DNA of 36,307 bases, from positions 1 to 36,307 of the forward strand of contig NZ_NGFP01000066.1 in assembly GCF_002149035.1 (NCBI RefSeq), read 5' to 3'. Source of the stretch: Streptosporangium minutum (GTDB taxonomy: Bacteria; Actinomycetota; Actinomycetes; Streptosporangiales; Streptosporangiaceae). A model generated the notes under the pieces. The model ran no database searches and was not told the origin of the DNA. It worked only from the letters and a program-made list of their open reading frames with translations. This document shows, one piece after another, positions 1,350-29,484 of the stretch. The position numbers and the translations under genes were made by a program. Each line of letters begins with the position of its first letter. Position 1 is the stretch's first letter.

Positions 1350-1507
1350 GAGAGCCGCTCACGGTGGCGTACGGCTGCGCACCCCGGAAACGATCAACGG
1401 CGCCCGGCCCGGGGGAAATCCCTGGTCAGACGCCGTTCGCGGTGCTCAGCGGAGAGCGTGGGATTCGAACCCACGAGGAGCCGCAAAGCCCCTAGCGGTT
1501 TTCAAGA
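1350..1507. repeat. attL-side repeat: tRNA-Ser 3' fragment plus 98-bp flank
   Basis: Positions 1448-1507 are a 60-bp copy of the anticodon-loop-to-3'-end part of the tRNA-Ser(UGA) gene at 29534-29622. The preceding 1350-1447 is nearly identical to 15538-15636, so the whole block is a direct repeat of about 158 bp with the block ending at 15696. It is read as the leftmost attachment core of a tandem array of integrative elements. The left flank represents the integrase-side end of an earlier, otherwise lost element of the same family. Confidence 0.8.
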
Positions 1508-7323: not shown

Positions 7324-7896
7324 TTACGACTTGGTTGGTACTGGGACGACGCCCCACATGAACGTGGAGCTCTTCAGTAGATGCTCCGTCACGCTGATCC
7401 CGGTCAGGTTCTCGACGAGTAGGAAAGCCGGCCCTTCGTAGAGCGGGGGAAACGATGGGTAGAGCCTGTCGATCTCCGCCATCGCGTCCACGAGTTCGTC
7501 CGGGATCTCCGTCGGATGTTCGGTATCGACTCCGGAGCAGAATCGGATCTCGCCGTTCTCACACCAGTAGAAGTAGTCCATGCCCTTGATGGCGAGTGCG
7601 GCTTGGGAGACGAGGCGGGTGCCCTGGGAGAGTTCAGTGATCACGTCTTCGCAGGTGCCGAGCCAGTCAGGGTCGAAAACGAACGTCCAATCGCCGATGG
7701 AGGTGACGCCGAGAGGCTCCCCAGAACGTGGGTAGTGATCCGGGTCGTCGGGGAAGGGGCCCGGCGTGAAGTCCTCCCATCGACCGCCGAGGCGGGCAAC
7801 CACCTGCTCAGGCGTGGCACGGATGTAGATGAAGCTGTAGCACTCCTCGGAGTATTCGCCGCAGAGCCATGAGATATCGAGGGGCTGCATAGTCAT
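7324..7896 (-). CDS. DUF6461-like hypothetical protein
   Basis: A 190-residue protein from ATG 7896 (a second Met follows two codons later). The pattern is that of actinobacterial DUF6461 proteins: ISWLCGEYSEECYSFIYIRA near the N-terminus, a TPEQVVARLGG motif, then GDWTFVFDPDWLGT and YFYWCENGEIRFCS. Such proteins are often encoded near polymorphic toxins and are thought to be immunity-like; the molecular function is unknown. No toxin gene is visible in the window. No membrane segment or signal peptide. The family call is from recall of the pattern and should be treated as moderate. Confidence 0.6.
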   Translation of the reverse strand: MTMQPLDISWLCGEYSEECYSFIYIRATPEQVVARLGGRWEDFTPGPFPDDPDHYPRSGEPLGVTSIGDWTFVFDPDWLGTCEDVITELSQGTRLVSQAALAIKGMDYFYWCENGEIRFCSGVDTEHPTEIPDELVDAMAEIDRLYPSFPPLYEGPAFLLVENLTGISVTEHLLKSSTFMWGVVPVPTKS

Positions 7897-10309: not shown

Positions 10310-11149
10310 GTGGAGGATCGACGGGATCGCCTGCGGGCGCTGGGTGAGTTGCTGCGTCGGCTGCGTAAGGATGCCGGGCTGACCGGCAAGGATCTGGCGT
10401 TGCGGGCTGGGGTGGCCCAGCCGACGATCTCTCGGATCGAGACGGGGCAGCTTCTTCCGGTCCCGGAGACGGTTGATCGGCTCGTCGAAGCACTGGGCCT
10501 GGATGACGCGGGCCGCGGGGAGTTGGACGCTCTGCTCGTACGGCTACGCGATGAGGTCTCCCGTCTCAAGGGTGGGCTGGCCGGCCGAGAGGCGGCCAAT
10601 GCTGCTCGGCTCCGTTCGGCTCGTCGGGTGGTGTCGTTTCAATCGGCAATGGTCCCGGCGTTGCTCCAGACGGCGGAGTATGCGCGGCTTGCCTTGGCTT
10701 TCGGCCGGGATGTCGATGAGGAAGATGCGGCCAAGGCTGCGGCGGTCCGGGTGGAGGGGCAAGCTGTCCTGTTCGAGTCGGGGCGTGAGTTCTCGTTCGT
10801 GCTGACGGAGGGGGCGGTTCGGACGTGGCCGGGGTCGCCGGCGTTGATGCGGGCGCAGCTTGATCGGCTGGTTCAGGTCTCGACGCTTCCCCATGTGGGA
10901 CTCGGGGTGGTGCCGTGGTCGACAGAGACGCCGGGGTTCCCGCTACACGGGTTCACGATCTATGACGGGTCGGTGAGCGTGGTGGAGAGCCTGACCGGTG
11001 ATCTCATGCTGAGCGAGCCGGGAGAGGTGGCCGCGCATGGGGAGACCTTCGAGGCGTTCGCGGCGGCTGCTGTGTACGGCGAGGGACTGCGGGATCTTCT
11101 GGGGCAGATCGGTGCCGACTATGAGGAGTTGGCCACCCGCCTGAGCTAA
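10310..11149 (+). CDS. XRE-family regulator with DUF5753 (Scr1-type antitoxin-like)
   Basis: A 279-residue protein from GTG 10310. An N-terminal Cro/C1 HTH is clear (LGELLRRLRKDAGLTGKDLA, LRAGVAQPTISRIETG; about residues 10-50). The remaining 180 residues are a DUF5753 domain (VVSFQSAMVPALLQTAEYAR; PHVGLGVVPWSTETPGFPLH; FTIYDGSVSVVESLTGDL). In Streptomyces such proteins usually pair with a small DUF397 partner; no DUF397 gene is seen here. Instead the next gene, 97 bp downstream, is an anti-sigma-like ATPase. Probable DNA-binding regulator of this accessory cluster. Length and domain order are typical. Confidence 0.85.
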   Translation: MEDRRDRLRALGELLRRLRKDAGLTGKDLALRAGVAQPTISRIETGQLLPVPETVDRLVEALGLDDAGRGELDALLVRLRDEVSRLKGGLAGREAANAARLRSARRVVSFQSAMVPALLQTAEYARLALAFGRDVDEEDAAKAAAVRVEGQAVLFESGREFSFVLTEGAVRTWPGSPALMRAQLDRLVQVSTLPHVGLGVVPWSTETPGFPLHGFTIYDGSVSVVESLTGDLMLSEPGEVAAHGETFEAFAAAAVYGEGLRDLLGQIGADYEELATRLS

Positions 11150-11151
11150 GT

Positions 11152-11167
11152 GACGTATTTATACGTC
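11152..11167. promoter_or_regulatory. Inverted repeat GACGTAT / ATACGTC
   Basis: A 7-bp perfect inverted repeat with a 2-bp centre lies just after the XRE stop codon and about 80 bp before the next start. Its AT-rich context and position between the regulator and the ATPase gene suggest an operator, possibly bound by the upstream XRE protein (inference). Confidence 0.4.
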
Positions 11168-11217
11168 GAATAGCTTGAGTGTCTTCTAAGGTCACTCATA
11201 CGCTGACGGCATGCATG

Positions 11218-11232
11218 TATAGTCCCCTAGAC
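11218..11232 (+). promoter_or_regulatory. TATAGT then CCCCTAGAC motif upstream of the ATPase gene
   Basis: A good -10-like TATAGT (11218-11223) is followed directly by CCCCTAGAC (11224-11232), 15 bp before the ATG at 11247. The related string CATAGCCCCCTAGAC occurs at 14492-14506, and GTCTAGGGG (its complement) plus GTCTAGAC at 12021-12036. The motif therefore appears upstream of three genes in this region and is a candidate shared operator. Confidence 0.45.
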
Positions 11233-11246
11233 ATCGGAGTTCCCCC

Positions 11247-11654
11247 ATGTCGCCGTCACGCGTCTCCCGCACCTTCCTCGGCTCCCCCGCCTCGATCACC
11301 GAAGCCCGCCGGTTCATCACCGTGTTTCTCCGCAACTGGCCATGCGTGGACGACGCCGAGCTCATCGTCAGTGAACTGGCCACGAACGCGGTCCGCCACT
11401 CCGACAGCGGCCGATTCGGGGGCCGCTTCACCGTCTCCATCGAGGCGGACAGAAGCCGGATGTGGCTCAGCGTCCTGGACGAGGGCGGTCCCCTCTCCCC
11501 TCGGGTGCTCCCGCCTCTCGCGAGCGGAGAGAACGGGCGGGGATTGGTGCTGGTCAACGAACTGGCGGCGGCCTGGGGAATCACCGGCGACGACAGAGGC
11601 CGCATCGTCTGGGCCGTCCTGGAGGCGCTTCCCGAAGCGGCGACACGTCGGTGA
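11247..11654 (+). CDS. Anti-sigma-factor-like ATP-binding protein (HATPase, RsbW type)
   Basis: A 135-residue single-domain GHKL ATPase. The N box is clear (AELIVSELATNAVRHSDSGR, about residues 37-56), as is the G1/G2 region (LSVLDEGGPLSPRVLPPLAS, then GENGRGLVLVNELAAAWGIT). Length and organisation match Streptomyces RsbW/SpoIIAB-like regulators that bind ATP and sequester a sigma factor or partner. No sigma or anti-anti-sigma gene of the usual kind is adjacent; the target may be encoded elsewhere. The next gene begins within its stop codon, indicating translational coupling. Confidence 0.85.
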   Translation: MSPSRVSRTFLGSPASITEARRFITVFLRNWPCVDDAELIVSELATNAVRHSDSGRFGGRFTVSIEADRSRMWLSVLDEGGPLSPRVLPPLASGENGRGLVLVNELAAAWGITGDDRGRIVWAVLEALPEAATRR

Positions 11655-11920
11655 GCTGCATAGCCCCTCACGTGGCACCGCTCCAGGCGACCCATGAACG
11701 GCTGACCTGGCTGAACCCGCGCGACGACGACCGCTACCGGCTGGTCGCCTGGACCTGCGACTGCCGGGCGGTCGTCTACGAGCTGCGCAGTTCGGGCGGG
11801 GTCTTCTTCGTCCACCGGATCGTCCAGGGCAGGCCGCGCACCATTACCGAGACCGGCCGGACTCGCGCGGCCGAAGCGCACAAACTTTGGATGGCCATCC
11901 TGCTGGGCCAGGCGCGATGA
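11651..11920 (+). CDS. Small hypothetical protein with a CxC motif, coupled to the ATPase
   Basis: An 89-residue protein from GTG 11651, overlapping the ATPase stop (GTGA overlap), so the start is set by coupling. Middle residues read DDDRYRLVAWTCDCRAVVYE, with a Cys-x-Cys followed by beta-rich sequence (SGGVFFVHRIVQGRPRTITE) and a C-terminal helix (AAEAHKLWMAILLGQAR). The CxC could bind metal or be redox-active, but there is no second Cys pair. No family recognised. It probably works with the XRE regulator or the ATPase. Confidence 0.65.
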   Translation: MSCIAPHVAPLQATHERLTWLNPRDDDRYRLVAWTCDCRAVVYELRSSGGVFFVHRIVQGRPRTITETGRTRAAEAHKLWMAILLGQAR

Positions 11921-12020
11921 CGAGAGGCGTACCGCGACGGCGCTCGGCGATCCGCGCAGTTCACCCGAAAACCGGCGAACCACTCACATCCATACCGTCA
12001 AGGGGGATAGACGACATTTC

Positions 12021-12036
12021 GTCTAGGGGTCTAGAC
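12021..12036. promoter_or_regulatory. GTCTAGGGG plus GTCTAGAC palindrome upstream of the HTH gene
   Basis: GTCTAGGGG (12021-12029) overlaps the perfect palindrome GTCTAGAC (12029-12036), 30 bp before the GTG start at 12067. GTCTAGAC-type palindromes are typical operators of GntR-like and related regulators; identity of the binding protein is unknown. Confidence 0.5.
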
Positions 12037-12066
12037 TCGGTTGAGCACCACCGAGGGAGAACCACC

Positions 12067-12906
12067 GTGCCATCGAGTGACCTTGAGCGGATCGCCGCCA
12101 TCGACAACCCGTACGTGTTGATCCGAGCCGCCACCGAACGGCTCAGCGCCGCACAACAGGAGGTCACCGAGCTGGCCCGGATGCGTCGACGCGTCATCCA
12201 GGAGCTGCACGCCCAAGGTATCTCCTACGCGCAGATCGCCGAACAGGCCGGCCTGTCACGCGGGCGTATCCACCAGATCAAGCACACCGGCCCCGCCCCC
12301 GAGGGCGCCTTCCTCGGCACCGGCACGATCACCCTGGCCACCCCGCTCAAGCGCGAGGCCAACAACGCCCGGCCCGTGGTCGCCATGGAAGACGTCACCG
12401 CCGCCAAGCGCCTGGAAGACCTGGCCCGCGGCTTCGACCTGGCGCTCAACCTCGAACACGTCCCGCTCGGCGGCGAGATCGACCTGAACCGGCCCAACCT
12501 CATCATCATCTGCGGGCCGAAGCTGTCGCCGGTCATGGGCGCGCTGTATGAATCCGACCCGGTCCTGGAGTGGATCAAGGACGGTGCGTGGACCCTGCGA
12601 GACCGCCGCACGGGGGACAGCTACCGCTCGGGCGAGGACTCCGACCCGGCGCGCCCGGTCGACTACGCCTACCTCGGGCGACTGGCCCGCCCCGACGGCA
12701 ACGGCAACCTTCTGGTCTTCACCGGCATCCACCCCCAAGGCACCCTCGGCGTGGTCGATCTGCTCACCTCCGAGATCGCCACCCTGTGGGGGCAGGTCGG
12801 CGAAAACCGCTTTTCCACCGTGGTGGGGGTGGAATACGACCCGGCGACCGGGGAACCGGTCAGAGCGGAACTGGCCAGCCCGCTCTACCGGCACGAGGAG
12901 ACCTGA
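12067..12906 (+). CDS. HTH protein with an uncharacterised C-terminal domain
   Basis: The start is GTG 12067, preceded by GAGGGAG; upstream frame extensions lack a ribosome-binding site. The product is 279 residues. About residues 20-75 form a sigma-4-like HTH (MRRRVIQELHAQGISYAQIA, EQAGLSRGRIHQIKH). The C-terminal 170 residues are a separate alpha/beta domain with a hydrophobic strand and glycine turn (RPNLIIICGPKLSPVMGALY), a DYAYLGRLARPDGNGN motif and LLVFTGIHPQGTLGVVDLLT. I know this pattern from actinobacterial proteins but cannot name the fold. The next gene, a PP2C-like protein, starts 5 bp after the stop, so the two form a pair. Confidence 0.7.
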   Translation: MPSSDLERIAAIDNPYVLIRAATERLSAAQQEVTELARMRRRVIQELHAQGISYAQIAEQAGLSRGRIHQIKHTGPAPEGAFLGTGTITLATPLKREANNARPVVAMEDVTAAKRLEDLARGFDLALNLEHVPLGGEIDLNRPNLIIICGPKLSPVMGALYESDPVLEWIKDGAWTLRDRRTGDSYRSGEDSDPARPVDYAYLGRLARPDGNGNLLVFTGIHPQGTLGVVDLLTSEIATLWGQVGENRFSTVVGVEYDPATGEPVRAELASPLYRHEET

Positions 12907-12911
12907 CCCCG

Positions 12912-13730
12912 ATGCGCGTCACCTTCGCCACCGAAGCGGCCCCCGGCCGTCCGAATGAGGACTTCGTCGGCGCCACCCCGGACGCGCTCGTCCTGCTCGA
13001 CGGCGCCGGCACCCCGCCCGGCTCGGAATCCGGCTGCGTTCACGGTGTCGCCTGGTACGCGCGCTCCCTCGGCTCCACCCTCATCGCCGGCCTGGCCCAG
13101 GACGGCAAGCCGTTGACGGAGATCCTGGCCGAGGGCATCAAGGCCGTGGCCTCCCTGCACGACTTCGTCTGCGACCTGACCCATCCCGGCTCGCCCTCGG
13201 CCACCGTGGTCATGCTCCGCCGTACGGCCGACGCCCTCGACTTCCTCGTCCTGGCCGACTCCGTCCTCATCCTCGACGTGATCGGTACGGCGGAGCCGAT
13301 GGTCATCTGCGACGACCGGGAGGCCCAGGTCGGCGCGACCTACCGGACGGCCATGGACGCGCTCGCCTCCGGCAGCCCCGGGCACGTCTCAGCCCATCGG
13401 GCGTATGTGGAGACCCTGCGCGATCACCGCAACCGCGACGGCGGGTTCTGGGTCGCCGCCGTCGACCCCCTCGCCGCCGAACAGGCCCTCACCGGCACCG
13501 TCCCCACCGACCGCGTGCGCGCCGCCGCGCTGCTCAGCGACGGAGCCTCCCGCCTCGTCGACCGCTTCGCCCTGGCCACCTGGCGCCAAGCCCTCGACCT
13601 GCTCGACGACTCCGGCCCCGAAGAGCTGATCCGTCAGGTGCGGGAGGCTGAGCACAGCGATCCGGACGGCTCTCAGTGGCCCCGCGGGAAGGCGTTCGAC
13701 GACGCCACGGCCGCCCATTGCCGCATCTGA
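12912..13730 (+). CDS. PP2C-like protein phosphatase
   Basis: A 272-residue protein from ATG 12912. It shows divergent PP2C-family features: GRPNEDFVGATPDALVLLDG at the N-terminus (the NxD motif of metal site 1 and the beta-strand Asp-Gly), SPSATVVMLRRTADALDFLV and LADSVLILDV in the middle, and AALLSDGASRLVDRFALATW near the end (the SDG motif). Such enzymes are Mg/Mn-dependent Ser/Thr phosphatases; the visible Asp residues suggest it could be active. No kinase gene is present. It is co-transcribed with the HTH protein ending 5 bp upstream, suggesting a two-gene signalling unit. Confidence 0.75.
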   Translation: MRVTFATEAAPGRPNEDFVGATPDALVLLDGAGTPPGSESGCVHGVAWYARSLGSTLIAGLAQDGKPLTEILAEGIKAVASLHDFVCDLTHPGSPSATVVMLRRTADALDFLVLADSVLILDVIGTAEPMVICDDREAQVGATYRTAMDALASGSPGHVSAHRAYVETLRDHRNRDGGFWVAAVDPLAAEQALTGTVPTDRVRAAALLSDGASRLVDRFALATWRQALDLLDDSGPEELIRQVREAEHSDPDGSQWPRGKAFDDATAAHCRI

Positions 13731-14369: not shown

Positions 14370-14453
14370 ATAACGACATTATCTTCACATTTCCTCCACA
14401 AAGCCTCTTTGTTTCGCTCATCTAAAGCATTTTTACTTCATCGCGTTTACCCT

Positions 14454-14542
14454 CCTAGACAGTTGGGGCAGACTCCGGATATCTGCGCTTGCATAGCCCC
14501 CTAGACACCTCACTTCTGCGGATCGGTCGCGACTGTCTAAGG
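14454..14542. promoter_or_regulatory. Regulatory region with CCTAGACAGT / ACTGTCTAAGG and CCCCTAGAC
   Basis: CCTAGACAGT (14454-14463) and ACTGTCTAAGG (14532-14542) are near-perfect inverted copies flanking a CATAGCCCCCTAGAC string (14492-14506) related to the one upstream of 11247. The spacing is wide (about 70 bp). These sites precede the fused AICE-type gene at 14565 and fit repression by a CTAGAC-binding regulator. The region upstream, 14370-14450, is AT-rich and gene-free. Confidence 0.45.
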
Positions 14543-14564
14543 GGATGGACGAAAGGTAGAGCCC

Positions 14565-14804
14565 ATGGCTATCCAAGGCCCCATCCCCATCGGCTTCGAC
14601 CAGGTCTTCCCGCACGGCTGCTACATCGTCGGCGAGGTCGAGCAAGTCAAGGTCTCCCTCTGGCTCAACGCGGGCGTTGCCGCTCCTGACGTGGCCGAGC
14701 GGGCAGGCCATGGGGTGGACGTACTGCTCAAGGTCTACGCCAAGTGCATCGACGGCGGCATGGAGATCGCTAACCGGCGGATCGAGGATGCGCTGGCGGC
14801 GTGA
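14565..14804 (+). pseudogene. Deletion fusion: AICE plasmid-type protein N-terminus joined to tyrosine integrase C-terminus
   Basis: A 79-codon open frame from ATG 14565 (GGTAGAGCCC upstream). Residues 1-28 (MAIQGPIPIGFDQVFPHGCY, IVGEVEQV) match the N-terminus of a conserved protein found on actinobacterial integrative elements. From about residue 31 the sequence is the end of a tyrosine recombinase: LWLNAGVAAPDVAERAGHGV, DVLLKVYAKCID. This includes the catalytic AGH histidine and the VYAK tyrosine nucleophile but lacks the Arg and HxxR boxes. An in-frame deletion has removed everything between, which explains why the element at 1448-15636 lacks an integrase. No recombinase activity is expected. 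Confidence 0.75.
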
Positions 14805-15537: not shown

Positions 15538-15696
15538 GAGAGCCGCTCACGGTGACGTACGGCTGCGCATCCCGGAAACGATCAACGGCGCCCGGTCCGA
15601 GGGAAATCCCTGGTCAGACGCCGTTTCGCAAGCCTGGCGGAGAGCGTGGGATTCGAACCCACGAGGAGCCGCAAAGCCCCTAGCGGTTTTCAAGAC
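15538..15696. repeat. Central att repeat: tRNA-Ser 3' fragment plus 99-bp flank
   Basis: 15637-15696 is a 60-bp copy of the tRNA-Ser(UGA) 3' part (29533-29592). 15538-15636 repeats 1350-1447 with a few substitutions. The core is at once the right end of the degraded element and the left end (attL) of the intact AICE. No gene lies between 15437 and 15831. Confidence 0.85.
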
Positions 15697-15812
15697 ACCT
15701 GACCATTACGTTGGTGACCGTTGGTCACTATTGACTGTTTTCGGCTGCGCTGGTGACACGGGCCGTGGAGCGTTGGCTAACGACAATGATCATCGGTCAC
15801 ATTCGGTCCTGT

Positions 15813-15831
15813 TGTTCCCAACCTGTTCCCA
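15813..15831 (+). repeat. Phased TGTTCCCA pair near attL (integrase arm-type candidate)
   Basis: TGTTCCCA at 15813-15820 and 15824-15831 with a 3-bp spacer (11-bp period), followed by TC. The same pair with the same spacing and trailing TC occurs near attR at 29459-29477. Presence at both ends of this element only, and in the same orientation, supports recognition by its own integrase. The pair overlaps the extreme 3' edge of the following minus-strand gene. Confidence 0.55.
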
Positions 15832-16044
15832 TCAGTCACCCGCCTTGCCGTCGCGGATCTGCGCAACGTACTCGCGGGTCCAACGTGCGCGCCTGGTGAC
15901 TTCGGTGAGCAGCCCCCGCTTTGGGGGCTCGCCTCGGTTCTCGGGGAACACCGCTCGGATCTCGGCGAACAGTTCAGCGCGTATGGCGTCGAGTTGGTCG
16001 CGGAGCTCCGCGATGCGATTCAAACGCTCTTCATCAGTGGTCAC
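15832..16044 (-). CDS. Small HTH-like regulatory protein
   Basis: A 70-residue protein from GTG 16044 (first residues TTDEERLNRIAELRDQLDAI). The N-terminal half is a charged helix; the C-terminal half (GLLTEVTRRARWTREYVAQI, RDGKAGD) resembles a short HTH in which ARWTREYVAQIRDGK would be the recognition part. It is the first gene inside attL and is transcribed toward the att core, divergently from the transfer operon. The shared intergenic region contains an elaborate symmetric repeat (16060-16148) that this protein could bind (inference). Similar short genes occur at this position in other AICEs. Confidence 0.65.
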   Translation of the reverse strand: MTTDEERLNRIAELRDQLDAIRAELFAEIRAVFPENRGEPPKRGLLTEVTRRARWTREYVAQIRDGKAGD

Positions 16045-16059
16045 GGACTCATGCTGTCA

Positions 16060-16148
16060 CAACTTTGTATGCCAAGAAAGTAGGCCAAGAGTATTGACCG
16101 ACAATCTCCCCGTGGCTAACGTACAGACTGTTGGCAAACAAAGTTGGC
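16060..16148. promoter_or_regulatory. Symmetric operator-like array between divergent genes
   Basis: CAACTTTGTATGCCAA (16060-16075) and TTGGCAAACAAAGTTG (16131-16146) are inverted copies matching at 15 of 16 positions. A second half-site lies exactly 13 bp further along on each side: GCCAA at 16071 and 16084, TTGGC at 16131 and 16144. The array brackets a good promoter (16094-16122). It suggests cooperative binding or looping by a regulator controlling the transfer operon. Confidence 0.6.
16094..16122 (+). promoter_or_regulatory. Predicted promoter of the transfer operon
   Basis: TTGACC (16094-16099) and TAACGT (16117-16122) are separated by 17 bp, a good match to a vegetative sigma-70-type promoter in an otherwise GC-rich region. 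Transcription would start near 16128, inside the TTGGC array, about 100 bp upstream of the first gene at 16230. Confidence 0.55.
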
Positions 16149-16229
16149 AATAAGCGAGGCGGCCCCGGCCGGTGTGCAACCACCGCCCGAGGCCTAGATC
16201 ACCACCTGCACGAACAGGAAGTAGATCCA

Positions 16230-17057
16230 ATGCCCAACCTTAGCGACATCATCAGGCCCACTGACGACCAGCTCGACGGCATCGCCTGTATCCGCTGCAG
16301 CGCCACCGACGCCCCGATGATCCCCGCCGGGTCCGGCGAGCGCGGGCAGCTCTTCGAGTGCTCGACCCACACCGCCGTACCGGCCGGCCGCGAGTACGGG
16401 GTGCGCGGCACCGTCGACACCGCCGAGGGCCGCCAGGTCCGCACCTACACCGGCCGCCGCCTCGACCAGGCCACCGCCGCCTCGATGCTGAAAGAGCTGC
16501 AGGACGCTCAGCAGCGCGAGGGCATCACGGCGGACGCGGTCATCGTCTCCCGTGACCCGGGCGGCGCGTGGACCGCGATCGAGCTCCCCCACAGCGAAGA
16601 CAAGACGGTCGAGGTCCTCGCCGATGCGGGCGCCGCACTGTCCGACCTTGAGGTCCGCGTCTGCTACGTCTCCGGTTACCTGTCGGCGGTGACGATGCTC
16701 GCCGAGCAGATGCGCACCGCTGGAGTCGACGCCCCGATCTGGGAGGAGTACCGGGCCAGTCTCCTCAATGAGGACGAGCGGGAGGAGATCATCCACGCCG
16801 TGAAGATGGTCATCCGCCGGCGCCGCGGCGAGGAGATCCGCGAGAACGTCGCGTTTGAACTGGCGATGCGCGCCGGGATGCTGTGCGGCGTCGAGCTGGC
16901 CACGACCTTCGACGGCGACACCGTGGCGGAGGTGGCCTACAACGCGGCCCGTGAGTGCATGTCCGAGTCCGAGGTGTCCGCCATGGCCGCGACGGTCGAG
17001 GACATCATCGTCAGCCGCCAGAGCGCCGAACCGGCCGCAACCACTGACCTCTCTTAG
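16230..17057 (+). CDS. AICE hypothetical protein, first gene of the transfer operon
   Basis: A 275-residue protein; ATG 16230 is chosen for AGGAAG 9 bases upstream, although the frame is open further. Near the N-terminus, ACIRCSATDAPMIP and a later C-x-H (LFECSTHTAV) could form a small metal site (about residues 22-50). The rest is soluble, with an acidic, helical C-terminal half (YRASLLNEDEREEIIHAVKM) and an RRRRGEEIRENVAFELAMRA segment. No family recognised. Position and strand place it at the head of the rightward transfer operon. Confidence 0.65.
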   Translation: MPNLSDIIRPTDDQLDGIACIRCSATDAPMIPAGSGERGQLFECSTHTAVPAGREYGVRGTVDTAEGRQVRTYTGRRLDQATAASMLKELQDAQQREGITADAVIVSRDPGGAWTAIELPHSEDKTVEVLADAGAALSDLEVRVCYVSGYLSAVTMLAEQMRTAGVDAPIWEEYRASLLNEDEREEIIHAVKMVIRRRRGEEIRENVAFELAMRAGMLCGVELATTFDGDTVAEVAYNAARECMSESEVSAMAATVEDIIVSRQSAEPAATTDLS

Positions 17058-17133
17058 CAGTACGGCCACGGCCGGTGTCTCACCACCGGCCGTGGCCTCG
17101 ACCCCATCCCCTGCACACACAGGAGACAGAACC

Positions 17134-17472
17134 GTGTCTGAGAACGTACAGCTTCCCTTGCCGTGCCCGCCATGGTGCGCGGTCGAGCACGCCGACGCCG
17201 GCCCGGACCGCACCCACACCGCCGGCCTTGGTCCGTTCGGCGGTCCGGGTCAGGTCGTCATCTGCTACGTGCAGGCCGACGAGAACGGTACCCGCTACCC
17301 GGTGCTGGGCCGCCTGTCCTACTACGTCGGCGGACAGCGGATGGTCCGCGACCTCGACCCGACCGACGCCTACGACTGGGGCCATGTCATCGCCGGCCTC
17401 GACATCCGGTCGTTCACCGAGTTCGCCGAGGCGCTCGGTACGGCCGCCCGGGTCCTGGACGGTGGCCTGTGA
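17134..17472 (+). CDS. Small AICE protein (DUF6907-like)
   Basis: A 112-residue protein from GTG 17134 with AGGAGA upstream. The N-terminus carries LPLPCPPWCAVEHADAGPDR, a Cys-Pro-Pro-Trp-Cys...His pattern reminiscent of DUF6907 proteins common on actinobacterial plasmids and AICEs. A beta-rich middle (GQVVICYVQADENGTRYPVL) and a helical C-terminus (SFTEFAEALGTAARVLDGG) follow. The Cys-x3-Cys-x3-His cluster may bind zinc. The DUF2637 gene begins within its stop codon. Family call moderate. Confidence 0.65.
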   Translation: MSENVQLPLPCPPWCAVEHADAGPDRTHTAGLGPFGGPGQVVICYVQADENGTRYPVLGRLSYYVGGQRMVRDLDPTDAYDWGHVIAGLDIRSFTEFAEALGTAARVLDGGL

Positions 17473-18674
17473 ACGCCCGCCGCGACTGGACCGTGATCGG
17501 GTGCGTTGCCCTGGTCGCCCTCGCCACCGTGACCGCGTCCTTCACCGCACAGTCCGGCCTCGGCGAGCTCGCTGGGTGGACCACCGTGTTCCACGTGTTC
17601 GGCGTCGAGGTGTCGATGTCGTGGCTGCTGCCGATCACGGTGGACGCCTACGGGATCGCCGCGACCCGCATCGCGACCGACAAGAGCAAGTACTCGGCCG
17701 AGGTGCGCGGGCACGCGTTCGGCCACGCGCTCGCCGCGGTGGTCGTCTCCGTCCTGGGCAACGCCATGTTCCATCTCCTCGAAGCTGAGGTGATCGTCCT
17801 GGGTGGCGCGTCCTGGGTGCTGGTGGTCGCGGTGTCGGTGGTGCCGCCGATCGCCCTGGGCGGGTTGGCGCACCTGCTCGGCGTCGCCGCCCGGGACGAA
17901 GTCGAGGTGCCCATGTCCGAGGGTGTCACCGCTGACACTCTCGAAAGGGTCGAGGTCACCGTCCCGGACTTCCTTGTGAATCACAAGGAGGTCCAGTCGG
18001 GTACGGCTGACGTCGGTTCCCCAATTGGGGAACCGATCGACGTACCCGCCGTACCCGCGCTCTCACCTGCTCCGATGCCGGTTCTCACACCCGCACCTGA
18101 TGAGCTGTTCCCGGTCGCCGCAGCCAGGTACGCCGCCGAGATTGCCGAGGGGCAGGCGCCCGCGGTGAGCCGCCTGAAGCGGGACCTGAAGATCGGGCAG
18201 CCGCGCGCCGTGAAGATCAAGGCATACCTCGACTCCCTCGCCGAGGCGAAGCCCGGCCCGGTGCTGCGAGGACAGGACGTCGTCGAGGACAGGACGTCGG
18301 TCCCCGCTGCTCCCTCGCGGAAGATCAGCAAGGAGGAAGAAGCGCGGAATGCTCTGGCTTTCGCCACCGAGTTCACGAAGGACAACCTGCCGAGCGAAGC
18401 CGACCTGGACGCGGCCGGACTCACCGAGCTCGGCAAGGCCGTCTTCCGCAAGGCGTGGAACATGCCCGTCCCGAAGCAGTCGGCCGAGGACAGCGAGCAG
18501 CCGTGGGAAGGCCCCTGGGGCGACGAGCCGACCGATGAGGAGCTGACCGCGGGCATGACGCCTGCCGAGGTCTTCGCCGGACCTCCGATCAAGGTCCTTC
18601 GGCAGCAGTGGCGGGAACGTGAGTGGCGGAACCGCACCGCCGCCATGAACGGCCACAGCCCCGCCTCGACCTGA
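17469..18674 (+). CDS. DUF2637 membrane protein (AICE, Spd-like)
   Basis: A 401-residue protein from GTG 17469, overlapping the previous stop (GTGA), so the start is set by coupling. The N-terminal 150 residues match DUF2637, with four hydrophobic helices: VIGCVALVALATVTASFTA, WLLPITVDAYGIAATR, AFGHALAAVVVSVLGNAMFH and ASWVLVVAVSVVPPIALGGL. A long Pro/Val-rich linker leads to a cytoplasmic region containing an HTH-like RLKRDLKIGQPRAVKIKAYL (about residues 235-255) and an acidic tail. DUF2637 proteins lie next to tra genes on AICEs and Streptomyces plasmids and are thought to aid intramycelial spread; the role here is inferred. Confidence 0.8.
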   Translation: MNARRDWTVIGCVALVALATVTASFTAQSGLGELAGWTTVFHVFGVEVSMSWLLPITVDAYGIAATRIATDKSKYSAEVRGHAFGHALAAVVVSVLGNAMFHLLEAEVIVLGGASWVLVVAVSVVPPIALGGLAHLLGVAARDEVEVPMSEGVTADTLERVEVTVPDFLVNHKEVQSGTADVGSPIGEPIDVPAVPALSPAPMPVLTPAPDELFPVAAARYAAEIAEGQAPAVSRLKRDLKIGQPRAVKIKAYLDSLAEAKPGPVLRGQDVVEDRTSVPAAPSRKISKEEEARNALAFATEFTKDNLPSEADLDAAGLTELGKAVFRKAWNMPVPKQSAEDSEQPWEGPWGDEPTDEELTAGMTPAEVFAGPPIKVLRQQWREREWRNRTAAMNGHSPAST

Positions 18675-18759
18675 CCCCTCCCTGAAACCAGGTCCGCCCC
18701 CGGATCAACCGTCGAAAGCAGGTCCAGGGGCGGGTCTCCCCAATGAAGGAGAGAGATCC

Positions 18760-18984
18760 ATGATTCACCATGTCCCCCGCCCGAGCATCTGGGCGGGTAT
18801 CTGGGCGGTGATCCGCCTGTTCCTCACCGCGCTCGATGACCTGGTGGCCGCGCTCGCCGGCGCCCGCCCGCTCCGCTACGACGCCCGCGATTCCGCCCGG
18901 GTGATCGGCGACGCCTACCGCACCGGCAAACACCACGTCGCCGACGCCGACGTGATCGACGACGACGAGGAGGACGAGCGATGA
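18760..18984 (+). CDS. Small AICE protein with one hydrophobic segment
   Basis: A 74-residue protein from ATG 18760, with GAAGGAGAGAG as a strong ribosome-binding site. The N-terminal third is hydrophobic (SIWAGIWAVIRLFLTALDDL, about residues 9-28) and could be a membrane-associated helix; the C-terminus is very acidic (DADVIDDDEEDER). It overlaps the next gene by ATGA. Small membrane proteins of this kind accompany tra genes on conjugative Streptomyces plasmids. No family named. Confidence 0.7.
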   Translation: MIHHVPRPSIWAGIWAVIRLFLTALDDLVAALAGARPLRYDARDSARVIGDAYRTGKHHVADADVIDDDEEDER

Positions 18985-19367
18985 CCGCCGACCGTCCCGG
19001 CCGTAGCCGGATCCCCGAGCTGAGCAACATCCCGTGGGGTGGTCCGCGGGCCGTCACCGACTACGCCAAGGTCGGGCGGGCGCTGTGCCGGGACCTTCAC
19101 GGGGAGTTCCTCATCGGCGCCGACGAGCTGTACGCGGTGCTGATCCGCAGCTTCAAGGGGCACCCGGTGCTCGCGCTGATGGGCGCCCCTGACGTACGGC
19201 TGCGCGCCCGCCGCGTCGTCAAGCGGCTCAAGCGGGCCGCGGAGCTGCAGAAGGGCGCCGGGGTCGAGCTGGTGAAGTTCCACCAGCAGTTCCGCAAGGA
19301 GTTCATCGACCAGTTGCCCGCGATCAAGGACAAGAAGAAGCCCGTCTTCAACTGGGACGACAACTGA
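18981..19367 (+). CDS. Small basic protein upstream of tra
   Basis: A 128-residue protein from ATG 18981, overlapping the previous stop by 4 bp and followed by a TGATG overlap with the translocase. It is strongly basic with a helical pattern (LRARRVVKRLKRAAELQKGA; KFHQQFRKEFIDQLPAIKDK) and no membrane segment. Tight coupling on both sides indicates a role together with the translocase, perhaps as an accessory transfer protein or DNA-binding factor. No family recognised. Confidence 0.7.
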   Translation: MTADRPGRSRIPELSNIPWGGPRAVTDYAKVGRALCRDLHGEFLIGADELYAVLIRSFKGHPVLALMGAPDVRLRARRVVKRLKRAAELQKGAGVELVKFHQQFRKEFIDQLPAIKDKKKPVFNWDDN

Positions 19368-21394
19368 TGGCCACCCGTAGCAAGGAGCTCGCGACCGTCG
19401 ACCCCGAGTCGTCGATGGACAAAGTCGTCGCCAAGGGCGTGTCCAAGCTCGTCACCCTGTCCGGCCCGTGGGTGGTCGGCATCCTGGCGTTCGGCGTCGG
19501 GACGGCCTTCCACGCAATCCTCGCCTCCGATGACCCGCAGGTGGTCGCGTGGACGGCGTTCCTGCTGTCCACCGCCGTGCTGGTGCTGACCGGCGTCACC
19601 TACGGCCAGTCGCACGCCCGCGGGGTGTGGGGGCGCATCCACACCACCGCCACAACGCTGCTGTCCGGGCTGTGGGTGACCGCGGCCACGATCAACGGCT
19701 CGACCACCGTCGTCACCGGCCGCCTGGTGCTCATCGGCGGATTCACCATGGCGTTGACGTGGAACATCCGGACCATCATCCGGCTGAAGGGGTGGGACGC
19801 GCCCGGCGCGATGTCCGATCCACTGGCGCTGCTGTTCGGCCAGGGCGCCGAGCGGGCCGGCCTCGCGATCGAGGCGCGCACCACCGCAGCGACCGCACAC
19901 AAGGTCGAGGGCGCCGTCCAGTTGGAGCAGGGACGGCAGACCGCCGAGGACCTGCAACGGAAGGTCCCCTACATCGAGTCCGGGATTGGGTTGCCGCCCG
20001 GGTCGATCACCACGAGCCTCGACCCCGACGACGCCAGCCGCGCCAAGGTGACGATCAGCGACCCGCGGGTGATGACGCGGCCCATCCCCTGGCCGGGCCC
20101 GTCCCGGCCAGGTGCGAGCGTCGCCGAACCGTTCCGCTTGGCCCTGTGGCAGGACCTCGACGAACTGCGGTACGTCATCATCGGCCACCACCTGCAGATG
20201 ATGGGCATGACCGGCGCGGGCAAGGGCTTCGGCGGCGCCTGGAACTACCTCGCCGAGTTCGTCACCCGGTTCGACGGCGCGGTGTTCGCTGGCGACATCA
20301 CCAAGGGACGGCAGACCCTCGGACCGCTGGAGGAGTCCCTGCACAGGTTCGAGACCACCCCGGCGGGTGTGAAGGCGATGCTGTCGGAGCTGCAGAAGCA
20401 GGTGAAGCCACGCACCGACTACCTGGCCGGCAAGGGGCTGGCGAAGTGGAAGCCGGGCTGTGGGCTCACCTACTGGCTGATCTGGCTGGAGGAGTTCCCC
20501 GACATCTTCGACTGCCTGTCCGACAAGGAACAAGAGCAGTTCTTGTCCATGCTCAAGGCGATCCGGTCCGCAGGCGGGACGATCGTCATGAGCCTGCAGC
20601 GGTCGGACTATACGCAGATGCCCACGCTGGCGCGCGGCCAGCTCGCGAAGATGTGCTTCGGCGTGGAGAACAGCGCTGATGCCTCGTTCGGCTTGTCAGA
20701 GCGGCAACAGGACGCCGGAGCGCGCCCGGAGCTGTGGACCAACGCTCAGCCCGGTATGGCCTACCTGGACGCGCCATCCATTCCGGATGGGCGGATCGCA
20801 ATGCCGATGCGGACCTACGCGTGGGGCATCGACGCCGCCGGCGAGTTCGACGACGAGCTCGCCAACGCAGCGATGAGAGAGCACGCCGCACGGTGGCCGG
20901 CGGCAGACAAGCGGGTCGACGAGACCACTGCGGCGCTGTCCCGGCTAGCAGGGGGCGCCAAGCCGCTCGGGGTGGCCGCCGCTCTGTTGGAGCGGCCCGC
21001 CGACCTCGACGACGACCCCGACGACGATGATGAGGAGGTGCGCAACGTGGCGAGTGAGTACCTGAGCACCGACGACCCCGACCCCGAGGTTCAGGCCGGC
21101 CTCGACGACCCGATCGACGACGACCCCGACGACCCCGAATGGGAGTTCACCCCGCCCGCGGTGACGATGACGCCGCAGGAGCGCGGAGCGGCCCTCATGA
21201 AGCACCTGAAAGGGCTGTGGGACGGTGGCGCCCGCGACTTCGCCACACGCGACCTCAGGCCGCTGTGGGAGTCCACCGACATGTCCAGGGCGTGGGCACA
21301 GAAGCAACTCAAGAGGCTGATCGAGGCCGACGTGATCGGCTACGACGACGACGCGCAGCGATACCTGATGTCGGAGCGACCCAACGTCGACTGA
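19367..21394 (+). CDS. FtsK/SpoIIIE-type conjugal DNA translocase (TraSA/TraB-like)
   Basis: A 675-residue protein. Four N-terminal hydrophobic helices (about residues 33-51, 61-82, 94-110, 122-142) anchor it in the membrane. The motor domain has a Walker A, MGMTGAGKGFGGAWN (about 284-298), and a Walker B, YWLIWLEEFPDIFD. A long acidic linker (DDDPDDDDEEV) leads to a C-terminal winged helix (about 600-670: FATRDLRPLWESTDMSRAWA, LKRLIEADVIGYDDD), the position of the FtsK gamma-like DNA-recognition domain. In AICEs and Streptomyces plasmids this single hexameric protein moves double-stranded DNA into the recipient. It is the last gene of the operon and is followed by a strong hairpin. Confidence 0.9.
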   Translation: MATRSKELATVDPESSMDKVVAKGVSKLVTLSGPWVVGILAFGVGTAFHAILASDDPQVVAWTAFLLSTAVLVLTGVTYGQSHARGVWGRIHTTATTLLSGLWVTAATINGSTTVVTGRLVLIGGFTMALTWNIRTIIRLKGWDAPGAMSDPLALLFGQGAERAGLAIEARTTAATAHKVEGAVQLEQGRQTAEDLQRKVPYIESGIGLPPGSITTSLDPDDASRAKVTISDPRVMTRPIPWPGPSRPGASVAEPFRLALWQDLDELRYVIIGHHLQMMGMTGAGKGFGGAWNYLAEFVTRFDGAVFAGDITKGRQTLGPLEESLHRFETTPAGVKAMLSELQKQVKPRTDYLAGKGLAKWKPGCGLTYWLIWLEEFPDIFDCLSDKEQEQFLSMLKAIRSAGGTIVMSLQRSDYTQMPTLARGQLAKMCFGVENSADASFGLSERQQDAGARPELWTNAQPGMAYLDAPSIPDGRIAMPMRTYAWGIDAAGEFDDELANAAMREHAARWPAADKRVDETTAALSRLAGGAKPLGVAAALLERPADLDDDPDDDDEEVRNVASEYLSTDDPDPEVQAGLDDPIDDDPDDPEWEFTPPAVTMTPQERGAALMKHLKGLWDGGARDFATRDLRPLWESTDMSRAWAQKQLKRLIEADVIGYDDDAQRYLMSERPNVD

Positions 21395-21401
21395 GCCCGC
21401 G

Positions 21402-21428
21402 GTGAGCCCGTCAGCCTGACGGGCTCAC
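21402..21428 (+). terminator. Perfect 12-bp hairpin after the translocase gene
   Basis: GTGAGCCCGTCA (21402-21413) pairs perfectly with TGACGGGCTCAC (21417-21428) around a GCC loop, 8 bp after the stop codon. There is no T-run, but this is common in actinobacterial terminators. Confidence 0.7.
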
Positions 21429-21519
21429 GGCTGCGCGTGGGCTGCGCGCGCACAAGTTTTGATCTTGCTGCCACGGGTGCCACACCCGGGCGCCACGCCC
21501 CCGCCACGGGGGTGCCATG

Positions 21520-21548
21520 AAGGGGTGCCACGATGCGTGGCACCCCTT
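21520..21548. terminator. Second perfect hairpin between tra and gntR
   Basis: AAGGGGTGCCAC (21520-21531) and GTGGCACCCCTT (21537-21548) pair perfectly over 12 bp with a GATGC loop. It separates the convergent tra and gntR genes and could terminate from either side. GGTGCCAC also occurs nearby at about 21475 and 21595, so a protein-binding role is possible. Confidence 0.6.
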
Positions 21549-21615
21549 CTGACCTGTAACACCCTCCCGCGTGACACCCCCAGCCCCTCCGTGAGGTGCC
21601 ACACTGCCGGCGCCC

Positions 21616-21867
21616 CTACTCGGCCGGCCAGTGCTCCCGATCGTTGACGTAGGTGCCGCGGCCCTGAACCGTCACCGTCCACCCCTGCTCGCCGAGGATG
21701 CGCATCGCGTGGCGGACCGTGCCGCGGGCGATGCCGTGCGCCTGCTGCAGCTGCGTCTCGCTCGGCAACACCTGGCGGGGTTCGTACTCGCCGGCCTTGA
21801 TCTGGTCGGCGATGATCCGCGCGAGCTGCTCGAAGAACGGCCGCTTGTCGAGGTGGTCAATCGTCAC
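21616..21867 (-). CDS. Short GntR-family regulator (KorSA-like position)
   Basis: An 83-residue protein from GTG 21867, consisting almost only of a GntR winged helix: PFFEQLARIIADQIKAGEYE, PRQVLPSETQLQQAHGIARG, TVRHAMRILGEQGW and a wing TVTVQGRGTYV. The effector-binding domain of full-length GntR proteins (about 240 residues) is absent. Short GntR proteins at this position on AICEs repress transfer and replication genes, like KorSA of pSAM2; that role is inferred. Its own promoter region carries a perfect palindrome and three CTGTAC half-sites (21904-21954), consistent with autoregulation. Confidence 0.8.
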   Translation of the reverse strand: MTIDHLDKRPFFEQLARIIADQIKAGEYEPRQVLPSETQLQQAHGIARGTVRHAMRILGEQGWTVTVQGRGTYVNDREHWPAE

Positions 21868-21903
21868 GTGGAAAACGTTACGGACAGGCTTAACGACCTG
21901 CGC

Positions 21904-21954
21904 ATACGGTCCGTATTACACAGGCTGTACGAGCTGTACGAGTAGGACGTACAG
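21904..21954. promoter_or_regulatory. Operator region of gntR: palindrome plus CTGTAC repeats
   Basis: ATACGGTCCGTAT (21904-21916) is a perfect palindrome around a central T. CTGTACGAG is repeated in tandem (21925-21933, 21934-21942), with an inverted GTACAG at 21949-21954. On the minus strand a -10-like TAATAC overlaps the palindrome. Likely binding sites for the GntR protein between it and the divergent gene at 22041. Confidence 0.6.
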
Positions 21955-22040
21955 TCCTTCCTAGGTCGCACAACGTAACGGGCCGCCCCGACGCTGAGAA
22001 CGTCGTGACGGCCCTTGATCGGACGATGGAGGTCCGACCC

Positions 22041-22208
22041 ATGGCCCACGATAAGACCGGCGACACTGCCGAGACCATCCCGCAAGAGACTCCCCCGGTC
22101 CGCTACTGGCCAGACGGAACCCAGGTCACGCTAGAAGTCGAGGCCGCACTCGATCGGATCGTGGCGACCGTCAAGCGGGTCCAGGCCAACCACCGCGACT
22201 CCGGATGA
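22041..22208 (+). CDS. Small acidic AICE protein
   Basis: A 55-residue protein from ATG 22041 with GGAGG upstream, which favours this start over ATG-less upstream codons. It contains PPVRYWPDGTQVTLEVEAAL and a short amphipathic helix (DRIVATVKRVQANHRD). It overlaps the next small gene by ATGA. No family recognised; it is divergent from gntR and probably under the same operators. Confidence 0.55.
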   Translation: MAHDKTGDTAETIPQETPPVRYWPDGTQVTLEVEAALDRIVATVKRVQANHRDSG

Positions 22209-22348
22209 CCGCGCGAGAGCTGGCAATCATCCTCGCTCGCCGCTGGCAGCTCACCCGCGAGGACCTGAACCATGCGGCCGACGCCCTCGGCGTGGCCCGG
22301 GTGACCGATGAGGAGTGGGCCGAGATCTGCGCCGGCGGCCCTTCATGA
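22205..22348 (+). CDS. Very small protein, translationally coupled
   Basis: A 47-residue protein from ATG 22205 within an ATGA overlap with the previous stop. The sequence is MTARELAIILARRWQLTRED followed by LNHAADALGVARVTDEEWAE and ICAGGPS. It is predicted helical and resembles the helical part of short plasmid-borne regulators. The coupling on both sides (another ATGA overlap follows) is the main evidence that it is translated. Confidence 0.5.
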   Translation: MTARELAIILARRWQLTREDLNHAADALGVARVTDEEWAEICAGGPS

Positions 22349-22530
22349 GCTGGCGCGGCGGCACACCACACCTTCCCCGTGTCGTCGCGCCTGAAGATTC
22401 CCGGCCGCATGCGCGCTCCCTGGTCGTTACCCCGGGGACGGCCGGGCCAGTGGCCCCGTCTCGTGAAGGGCGAGACGGGGCCACCGTCATTTCTGCAGTT
22501 TCTACAGGACCTCTACGCGCGCACGTGTAA
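22345..22530 (+). CDS. Possible small protein, doubtful
   Basis: ATG 22345 overlaps the previous stop by ATGA and the frame gives 61 residues (MSWRGGTPHLPRVVAPEDSR...). However, the frame runs straight through a perfect 14-bp terminator-like hairpin at 22450-22484 and has no recognisable features afterwards. It may be real only as coupled read-through, or not a gene at all. Confidence 0.3.
   Translation: MSWRGGTPHLPRVVAPEDSRPHARSLVVTPGTAGPVAPSREGRDGATVISAVSTGPLRAHV
22450..22484 (+). terminator. Strong 14-bp perfect hairpin
   Basis: GTGGCCCCGTCTCG (22450-22463) and CGAGACGGGGCCAC (22471-22484) pair perfectly with loop TGAAGGG; TCATTTCT follows after a short gap. A good terminator for the small gene group starting at 22041. 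Confidence 0.75.
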
Positions 22531-22600
22531 GGGCGTCACGAAAGTCACGAAACCCCTCCCGCGCGCATACGTAAGAGGCTCTTAAAACTCTCAAAACTCC
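22516..22600. repeat. Short iterated repeats between convergent genes
   Basis: GTCACGAAA occurs in tandem (22535-22543, 22544-22552). AAAACTC occurs at 22584 and 22593 with a 9-bp period. Two related CGCGCGCA...GTAAG strings start near 22516 and 22560. The segment is unusually A-rich for the element. It could be a replication origin or a binding array, but this rests only on repeat content. Confidence 0.35.
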
Positions 22601-22601
22601 C

Positions 22602-22913
22602 CTACCCGCACTGGTGAGCCCAGTGGCCACCGTCGCGGAGATCGCACCAACGCCGACCCGAGTGATACAGGCCGCCCTCGCTCAACCAGGCATCCAACGG
22701 AGTAGACGCCCCCGACTTCCCCACCTCAGCCAGCAGCGGCGGCGCCGGCATGTCCAACTCCTCCGCCAGCTCGACCAGGCGCCCATACGACCCGCACGCC
22801 ACCCCCTCCAGGTCCGGCGACAGCATCGAGGCGTACATGGCCAGCGTCGTCACCTCGTACGCCTCCTCCAGCAGCTCCCGCCGGTCATCGACGTCGACCC
22901 ACTTACGCGCCAC
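22602..22913 (-). CDS. Hypothetical protein of the replication-side operon
   Basis: A 103-residue protein from ATG 22913, starting 11 bp inside the previous gene. It is acidic and helical (RELLEEAYEVTTLAMYASML, RLVELAEELDMPAPPLLAEV), with three Cys and a His near the C-terminus (RRWCDLRDGGHWAHQCG) that might bind metal. Last gene of the leftward operon. No family recognised. Confidence 0.6.
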   Translation of the reverse strand: MARKWVDVDDRRELLEEAYEVTTLAMYASMLSPDLEGVACGSYGRLVELAEELDMPAPPLLAEVGKSGASTPLDAWLSEGGLYHSGRRWCDLRDGGHWAHQCG

Positions 22914-23280
22914 GCGACCACCTTGCCCGCGACGCCTTCCGGGCGTTCTCCGACACCGTCATGCCATCGCCACCACGGCCACCCGCCGCATCCGGCAAAG
23001 CCAGCGACGACGCCAACCCGCGCAACGCAAGACGCTGCTGACGAACCTCGGCGAACAACCGGTTCGGAACCAGCCCCTGAGACGGGCTCATCACCATCGT
23101 GGGCGCGCTCTCCAGCTCCGTAGCCAGGCGCTCCAACGTGTCGAGGGTCCGGCAGAACTCCCGGACGACGTGAACCTCGTCGGTACGGAAGTCGTACTCG
23201 ACCGTCAACCGGTTCCACGCCTCCAGCCCACGCTCCGCCAGGCCCGCCGGCGGCGGCAGCGGCTCTCTGATCGACTTCAC
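22903..23280 (-). CDS. Phage terminase small subunit-like protein
   Basis: A 125-residue protein from GTG 23280 with GGAATGAGG upstream. The pattern AGLAERGLEAWNRLTVEYDF, VVREFCRTLDTLERLATELE, PSQGLVPNRLFAEVRQQRLA, LRGLASSLALPD matches the P27-type small terminase subunits of actinophages. Those proteins bind phage DNA at the packaging site. No large subunit is present. On a conjugative element it might act as a DNA-binding protein for replication or transfer, or be a phage relic. The C-terminus carries a basic tail (ENARKASRARWSRGA). Family assignment by pattern, moderate. Confidence 0.6.
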   Translation of the reverse strand: MKSIREPLPPPAGLAERGLEAWNRLTVEYDFRTDEVHVVREFCRTLDTLERLATELESAPTMVMSPSQGLVPNRLFAEVRQQRLALRGLASSLALPDAAGGRGGDGMTVSENARKASRARWSRGA

Positions 23281-23403
23281 GACGGCCTCATTCCTGCCTT
23301 TGGAACTTCGTCATGCACAGTGACAGGTGAGCGCTATACCGTACCGGGCGACCTTCCGAATTGATCTTCGGGTACCCCCCCACCCTGGGGACGTTTATGC
23401 AGG

Positions 23404-23613: not shown

Positions 23614-23724
23614 GTTGTCTCCAAGTGTGTGATGGCCCCGACCCGACCCGACACGTGCGAGCCGGGGCCATGACGGCACCGCTGCTGCCCGGGTAGGAGG
23701 AGACCACTGGCAGCGGTGCCGGGC

Positions 23725-24712: not shown

Positions 24713-24714
24713 GG

Positions 24715-27471: not shown

Positions 27472-27481
27472 TCAGCCTCCA

Positions 27482-29453: not shown

Positions 29454-29458
29454 CGGGG

Positions 29459-29477: not shown

Positions 29478-29484
29478 TCGGAGC

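Follow-up and report, generated by a model that had tools for sequence, protein, structure and literature searches.

Five intact, collinear open reading frames (ORFs) occupy positions 10310-13730 on the forward strand of a 36,307 nt stretch of Streptosporangium minutum DNA (contig NZ_NGFP01000066.1, assembly GCF_002149035.1; the whole stretch is referred to as the window), as an original prediction made from the letters alone had described. The first, whose start codon is uncertain, encodes an XRE-type regulator with a DUF5753 domain (10310..11149; Pfam PF19054, E 2e-33; HTH_31, E 1e-16), and is followed, with no forward-strand ORF of 50 aa in between, by the gene for an RsbW-like ATPase of the GHKL type (11247..11654; HATPase_c_2, E 1e-13). 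The latter has weak matches to anti-sigma models, and its residues E43, N47, D78 and G80, along with the GRG of positions 97-99, are invariant in 77 aligned rows. The third gene (11651..11920) encodes a 'CxC' peptide of a family that is multicopy in the genus, with C3, H7, C36 and C38 conserved and no Pfam family above the cut-off. Next is a helix-turn-helix (HTH) protein, here termed HTHu (12067..12906), which has a Sigma70_r4 match restricted to residues 40-74 (E 1e-5); sigma-70 region 2 was not found, nor was there any Pfam match to GntR or UTRA. The last gene encodes a PP2C (PPM) phosphatase (12912..13730; PP2C_2, E 1.6e-5) in which all of the metal ligands are present.

This gene model requires one correction. 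The frame of HTHu is open upstream as far as an ATG at 11917, which overlaps the CxC stop codon as ATGA, giving an in-frame N-terminal extension (11917..12066, forward strand). Changes in its first 33 codons fall mostly at third positions (165, 142 and 400 by codon position; nine loci, 36 pairs), and therefore this part is probably translated; the final 17 codons, which overlap an operator discussed below, have no third-position bias (97, 54 and 84). The CxC stop codon and the GTG at 12067 are separated by 150 nt both in the window and in nine of an initial ten CxC-bearing relatives, the other (L008) having 147 nt, and a few relatives, L153 and L156 among them, have a stop codon within the extension. 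HTHu may exist in two forms, of 329 aa and 279 aa.

The original prediction also held that the cluster lacks both the usual DUF397 partner of the XRE protein and an anti-anti-sigma factor. In agreement with this, there was no Pfam match to DUF397 among the XRE neighbours scanned and none to a STAS domain in 30 window ORFs, a subset of those in the window. Its suggestion of a stress or defence role found little to sustain it: apart from a weak Csx19 match on the phosphatase (E 0.015), all PADLOC matches lay within the HTH region of XRE, and no toxin domain was found in the Pfam scan.

Linkage in relatives and the host element

Species genomes yielded 161 HTHu relatives when scanned, and the nearest 80 were kept, meaning that the counts below describe a close clade. 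The XRE, RsbW and PP2C genes each adjoin HTHu in 78 of these 80 loci and the order XRE, RsbW, HTHu, PP2C is collinear in 76, CxC being optional (28 of 80); the HTHu frame is open in all 80. The original prediction had named unlinked genes in other genomes as grounds for its rejection, and on these counts the four-gene linkage exceeds chance. Amongst the exceptions, L189 lacks XRE and RsbW, L174 and L180 lack PP2C, and the absence of XRE and RsbW from L164 is uninformative, as that sequence starts 187 bases before the HTHu match. Nine more distant or odd loci had no XRE match and a single RsbW match. Genes were called by a simple composition rule, with which small genes may be missed; tblastn rows with an internal stop were dropped (RsbW of L179 and L186, CxC of L146, XRE of L176), and the alignments of HTHu (A2) and PP2C (A3) comprise the window plus 62 of 80 and 56 of 78 sequences, respectively. 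More widely, HTHu had a match of some kind in 24 of 60 genomes sampled from the genus, family, order and class, 17 matches being near full-length with the window included, and in 11 of 396 genomes spread across the phylum. CxC was considered as a strict partner of RsbW and rejected, an RsbW-like match lying beside a CxC paralogue (within about 1.5 kb) in just three of 19 loci.

Downstream of the module, a typical locus carries a gene of 120-141 aa (family f6 in L165, f8 in L132), followed by FtsK/SpoIIIE, the RepSA of pSAM2, Xis and a tyrosine integrase, with L165 also having a DUF2637 gene between FtsK/SpoIIIE and RepSA. Among the 66 loci with at least 7.5 kb of downstream sequence (14 of the 80 were too close to a contig end), FtsK and RepSA are both present in 50, one of the two in one and neither in 15; an integrase match of at least 200 aa is found in 48 of the 50. 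In the two elements scanned with Pfam, RepSA matched PF20199 (E 2.6e-104 and 4.4e-149), and 24 of 26 loci scanned for tRNA genes contained one. What these relatives hold is the gene set of a pSAM2-type actinomycete integrative and conjugative element (AICE), with FtsK/TraSA, RepSA, Xis and a tyrosine integrase beside a tRNA gene.

According to PMC8584621 and PMC3218068, KorSA represses pra in pSAM2 and Pra activates int-xis-repSA, and in an element of Streptomyces coelicolor the KorSA homologue SCO3932 adjoins the Pra homologue SCO3933, with TraSA and RepSA homologues following. The name Pra was given to f6 from a comparison of gene order with PMC8584621 and does not rest on sequence similarity; f8 is Pra-like by position only, hhalign having detected no homology between it and f6 (probability 0.9 percent). 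A search with f6 found a match in 98 of 121 Streptomyces genomes, and the 20 loci fetched comprised two with the module (L261 and L262) and 18 module-free AICEs. A GntR protein, on the same strand or divergent, fills the slot beside f6 in 17 of these 18, L274 being the exception, and in 16 cases it has a UTRA domain. When a GntR profile was built from the module-free loci, no GntR-like ORF was found between 2.6 kb before and 8.5 kb after HTHu in any of the 80 module loci; that this profile recovers 17 of the 18 module-free loci is a matter of construction, making the 0 of 80 the real result. The module and the KorSA-type regulator did not occur together. The idea that the module is carried as cargo is thus at odds with its place in the regulator slot of an AICE, and with the operator that it has in common with the transfer operon. 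In the GntR-type AICEs L264-L273 and L280, an RsbW-like ATPase was observed beside a 143-176 aa gene that adjoins the GntR gene; in L268, the only one scanned, the 143-176 aa gene encodes a NUDIX hydrolase.

In the window itself, queries from module-bearing AICEs gave no match to FtsK, RepSA or Xis. Instead, a scar on the forward strand (14565..14804) fuses f8 residues 1-29 to residues 401-455 of a 456-residue integrase, forming a remnant of the transfer operon. A 60-bp exact repeat of tRNA-Ser sequence, a likely attachment-site copy, marks the left limit of the module's element (1448..1507), and a second copy (15637..15696) marks both its right limit and the left limit of a further element; because a third copy lies at 29532, the window seems to contain two elements in tandem, the first holding the module. 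The first would therefore be a decayed AICE from which the transfer and replication genes have been lost and the module left. Streptosporangium canum (L130) has the same module, together with an f8 gene and an integrase fragment, and no FtsK or RepSA match. Between the two, dN/dS is 0.119 for XRE, 0.158 for RsbW, 0.142 for CxC, 0.081 for HTHu and 0.129 for PP2C. Hence, by these measures, two strains without transfer or replication genes have kept the module intact and under constraint, although the constraint may in part predate the loss of those genes, and the survival of an intact module in decayed elements points to a function beyond transfer.

Operator sites and their candidate reader

Six copies of a 22-bp putative operator were located in the window with a matrix. 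One lies before the RsbW-like gene (11214..11235, reverse strand), two before the short-form HTHu start (11994..12015 and 12018..12039, both forward strand), and three before the transfer-operon remnant (14442..14463 and 14488..14509, reverse strand; 14532..14553, forward strand). The second of the HTHu pair contains the palindrome GTCTAG-N4-CTAGAC with a TAGACT -10-like hexamer. S. canum has six copies in the same arrangement.

In 69 of the 80 loci the exact palindrome precedes the HTHu start by 40-52 bases; its 99 copies in 1.30 Mb also include 28 before RsbW and two before neither gene. It occurs in 10 of 31 whole genomes, once in each and just before an HTHu gene, and is absent from the other 21. 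Further related sites precede f6 and f8: a 9-mer core has 134 copies in the f6/f8 gaps, at least two in 48 of 49 gaps and at least three in 37, as well as 59 copies before RsbW, 30 before HTHu and 58 elsewhere, those listed among the last being mostly clustered in twos or threes at 2.4 to 8 kb downstream. The 18 module-free AICEs had no copy of this core. The matrix was trained on 40 loci and tested on 40 others, the two sets being related and so not fully independent. In the held-out loci, sites were detected before RsbW in 39 of 39, before the f6/f8 transfer operon in 30 of 30 (at least three sites in 29), before RepSA in 10 of 25 and before XRE in three of 39 (none of 39 in training), with five matches elsewhere in 667 kb; the 271 kb of the module-free AICEs contained no site. 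These distributions support the module having its own putative operators on two promoters and on the AICE transfer operon. The original suggestion of a self-contained signalling module fits, if HTHu is taken as its output. A text search of the literature for the operator core gave no actinomycete paper among the matches listed.

Evidence as to which protein reads these sites comes from plasmids. HTHu relatives are present on 24 plasmid records, all at below 60% identity, and had no match in phage records. In 15 of the 17 plasmid loci fetched, PP2C directly follows HTHu; the same stretches contain one XRE match, in L294, which has no good site, and one RsbW match, in L297, which has no PP2C match. 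All 21 GTTTA-N6-TAAAC sites (at most one mismatch) in 12 Streptomyces plasmid stretches lie in the gap between HTHu and a divergent operon. For 24 HTHu genes without the module, on plasmids and at other loci, GTYTA-N6-TARAC (at most one mismatch) lies within 120 bases upstream in 15, where shuffling predicts 0.2. The site thus appears to travel with HTHu rather than with XRE or RsbW. The plasmid HTHu proteins are annotated as sigma-70 family in 15 of 20 listed records, and the PP2C partner as an integrase in seven of the 17 fetched loci; both labels are probably misannotations, which this analysis would correct.

Putative sensor domain and phosphatase

The structure predicted for HTHu (mean pLDDT 87.5, pTM 0.73) combines the sigma-region-4-like HTH with an alpha/beta C-domain (about residues 86-279). 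Predicting this C-domain was one of the checks originally proposed, and the fold obtained belongs to no known family: nothing in the PDB was significant at E 1e-3, the best matches being BcsB (E 3.5e-3) and then alpha-glucuronidase domains, a viral fold was rejected after comparison, and UTRA was rejected at an hhalign probability of 0.1. Residues 86-230 fall into two types, A and B, with identities of 0.81-0.86 within types and 0.52-0.55 between them. The types were first labelled from HTHu identity; in a label-free test of the C-domain none of 528 pairs had an identity of 0.60-0.65, and the HTH part formed one cluster. XRE, RsbW and CxC lack this split, and PP2C has it weakly. Because Streptosporangium, Nonomuraea, Microbispora and Microtetraspora each hold both types, the C-domains seem to have been exchanged by recombination. 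Two genomes with a type-B module (G012 and G004) have a separate PP2C, 93% and 85% identical respectively to the type-A PP2C of the window and preceded by an HTHu tail, which hints at compatibility groups. In the CxC-bearing set, HTHu and PP2C distances have a correlation of 0.62, other pairs reaching at most 0.43.

Loss of the PP2C metal ligands across the family had been named as a further ground for rejection, but no ligand column varies among the 57 rows of A3. When the set was widened to 65 rows, 56 of the 58 letters at D210 were D and two were N, with no variation at the other ligand positions. The predicted structure (pLDDT 94.9) has Foldseek matches to Stp1 (E 8.7e-11) and PstP (E 1.9e-10), and both the fold and the ligands place the protein among the PPM/PP2C phosphatases. 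Unlike those enzymes, to which identity is 11-19% in 50 listed structures, it follows HTHu in 78 of 80 loci and has solo relatives; in addition, a relative on two Streptomyces plasmids (L289:3363-4694 and L292:3363-4694) runs on into a domain annotated as UTRA, the ligand-binding domain of KorSA-type regulators.

Readings of the switch

Shared, along with its control sites, by many soil bacteria, the cluster looks like an undescribed on/off switch for self-transferring elements, in the position where related ones use a KorSA-type repressor. We think it reasonably likely that it is the control module of a pSAM2-type AICE, with HTHu as an operator-binding repressor and PP2C setting its activity. 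This proposal builds on the gene linkage, the operator map, the replacement of a GntR regulator and the predicted PP2C fold with its ligands, each of which the sequences support. HTHu would bind the TGTCTAGGGGNNTANAC sites before RsbW, its own gene and the transfer operon (three sites), and in some elements repSA, keeping the element quiet; that HTHu is the protein binding there is probable, and its action would be repression rather than activation. The alpha/beta C-domain would serve as a sensor, and PP2C, encoded directly behind, would be the partner that sets HTHu activity, probably by dephosphorylating HTHu or a linked protein in opposition to phosphorylation by the RsbW-like ATPase, though a phospho-switch of this kind is put forward as a tentative possibility. 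A feedback loop is likely, because the RsbW gene itself appears to be behind an operator. XRE-DUF5753 and RsbW, with CxC where present, would constitute a second, separable block feeding the same circuit, XRE adding an input.

RsbW/SpoIIAB partner switching comprises a GHKL ATPase and a PP2C phosphatase together with a STAS protein and a sigma factor. The original comparison with it is borne out insofar as the module clusters a PP2C that has its metal ligands with a GHKL ATPase whose ATP-site motifs are intact. However, the STAS component and a full sigma factor were not found in the ORFs scanned, and the plasmid PP2C pairs with HTHu in the absence of RsbW; with no STAS protein found, this does not appear to be classic partner switching. 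KorSA-Pra of pSAM2 and SCO3932-SCO3933 is similar in having a regulator beside the gene in the pra position, with operators between, and then TraSA/FtsK, RepSA and Int (PMC8584621 and PMC3218068). By contrast, the module has no GntR/UTRA protein, HTHu having a C-domain unrelated to UTRA; it adds a phosphatase and a kinase-like ATPase; and its operator differs, as seen from the 18 module-free AICEs. The XRE-DUF397 pairs of Streptomyces (PMC10364602) likewise have an XRE protein with DUF5753, but in the module an RsbW-like ATPase stands next to it and no DUF397 was matched. The module was not found described in the open-access literature, subscription papers being mostly outside that search.

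Several observations weigh against HTHu and PP2C as the switch for transfer. In the window and in 15 of 66 loci the module persists although FtsK and RepSA are missing, a pattern that a switch for transfer alone would not explain, and the supposed sensor domain has no significant fold match. When all 85 loci are taken together, HTHu and PP2C correlate at 0.54, below several other pairs. Before HTHu, the matrix detects a site in just 25 of the 40 test loci (and in 22 of the 40 training loci), and G038 has a distant HTHu without the exact palindrome. Nine of the 24 module-free HTHu genes lack a site at up to one mismatch (L281 and L297 have two; L107, L189, L257, L258, L259, L285 and L294 three or four), the pattern having been drawn up after part of the sequences had been seen, and the 10 perfect sites all belong to Streptomyces plasmids whose upstream regions closely resemble one another. 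L189, retaining HTHu and PP2C but not XRE, RsbW or a good site, is also consistent with XRE being the binder.

That last locus also counts towards an alternative we regard as unlikely, in which XRE-DUF5753 is the operator-binding master repressor of a phage-like switch and HTHu-PP2C a separate, modulating signalling pair. The presence of XRE beside the module in 78 of 80 loci agrees with this; however, the XRE gene itself has an operator in only three of 78 loci, and on plasmids, where XRE is nearly always missing, a similar site stands at an equal distance before HTHu-PP2C pairs. It is rather improbable that HTHu is instead a sigma-like activator, sequestered by RsbW as an anti-sigma factor and released in a PP2C-dependent manner to switch the transfer operon on. 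Its Sigma70_r4 match, the plasmid annotations and the anti-sigma resemblance of the GHKL protein would suit such a role, but the match is region-4-like without region 2, the one plasmid stretch of 17 with RsbW has no PP2C match, and the operators overlap a -10-like hexamer, as repression would predict.

A similarly low probability attaches to a module for defence, addiction or superinfection immunity, kept for the host or for excluding related elements and not for the timing of transfer. Its retention in loci without FtsK and RepSA, the purifying selection on all five genes in the window and S. canum, and the two discrete, swapped C-domain types are all in keeping with this, against which stand the PADLOC and toxin-domain results and the operator array at the transfer operon; moreover, immunity and transfer control can be one repressor, as in phages. 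Finally, HTHu binding is deduced from sequence, and the operators could in principle be read by a host protein with the module genes merely adjacent, but this is very improbable given that the palindrome is absent from 21 of 31 genomes and lies only beside the module in the other ten, and that no operator occurs in the module-free AICEs.

If HTHu-PP2C is the switch, a speculative and somewhat doubtful extension is that it represents an undescribed class, in which a repressor with an exchangeable sensor (A or B) is read out via PP2C, accompanied in AICEs by a GHKL kinase and no STAS protein, giving related AICEs and actinomycete plasmids separate signal or immunity groups. To our knowledge, the change from quiet to mobile has been worked out for few AICEs beyond pSAM2. 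The six-site operator map, the phosphatase and the kinase candidate make the proposed switch directly testable, and it would link conjugation to protein phosphorylation.

Relatives of the pair also occur in reduced or rearranged forms. Only the HTHu tail remains before an intact PP2C in L097 and L109, the neighbouring gene in L109 presumably encoding a transposase. Solo PP2C relatives were searched for a shared partner without a common neighbour emerging in the 22 loci listed, L260 apart. In L260, from another class of the phylum, an HTHu C-domain directly precedes the PP2C match (L260:9042-10151); the N-terminal part is unmatched by HTHu and gives the impression, from its sequence, of an XRE HTH.

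Elsewhere in the window, a Tn3-type transposase fragment (1083-1328) lies beside the left tRNA-Ser copy, and a DUF6461 protein (7324-7896) is encoded within the first element. The second element (15637-29591) has no counterpart at the corresponding position in S. canum, and encodes an AAA_25 ATPase, a weak DUF2637 match, a short GntR protein, an Xis-like protein and a tyrosine integrase.

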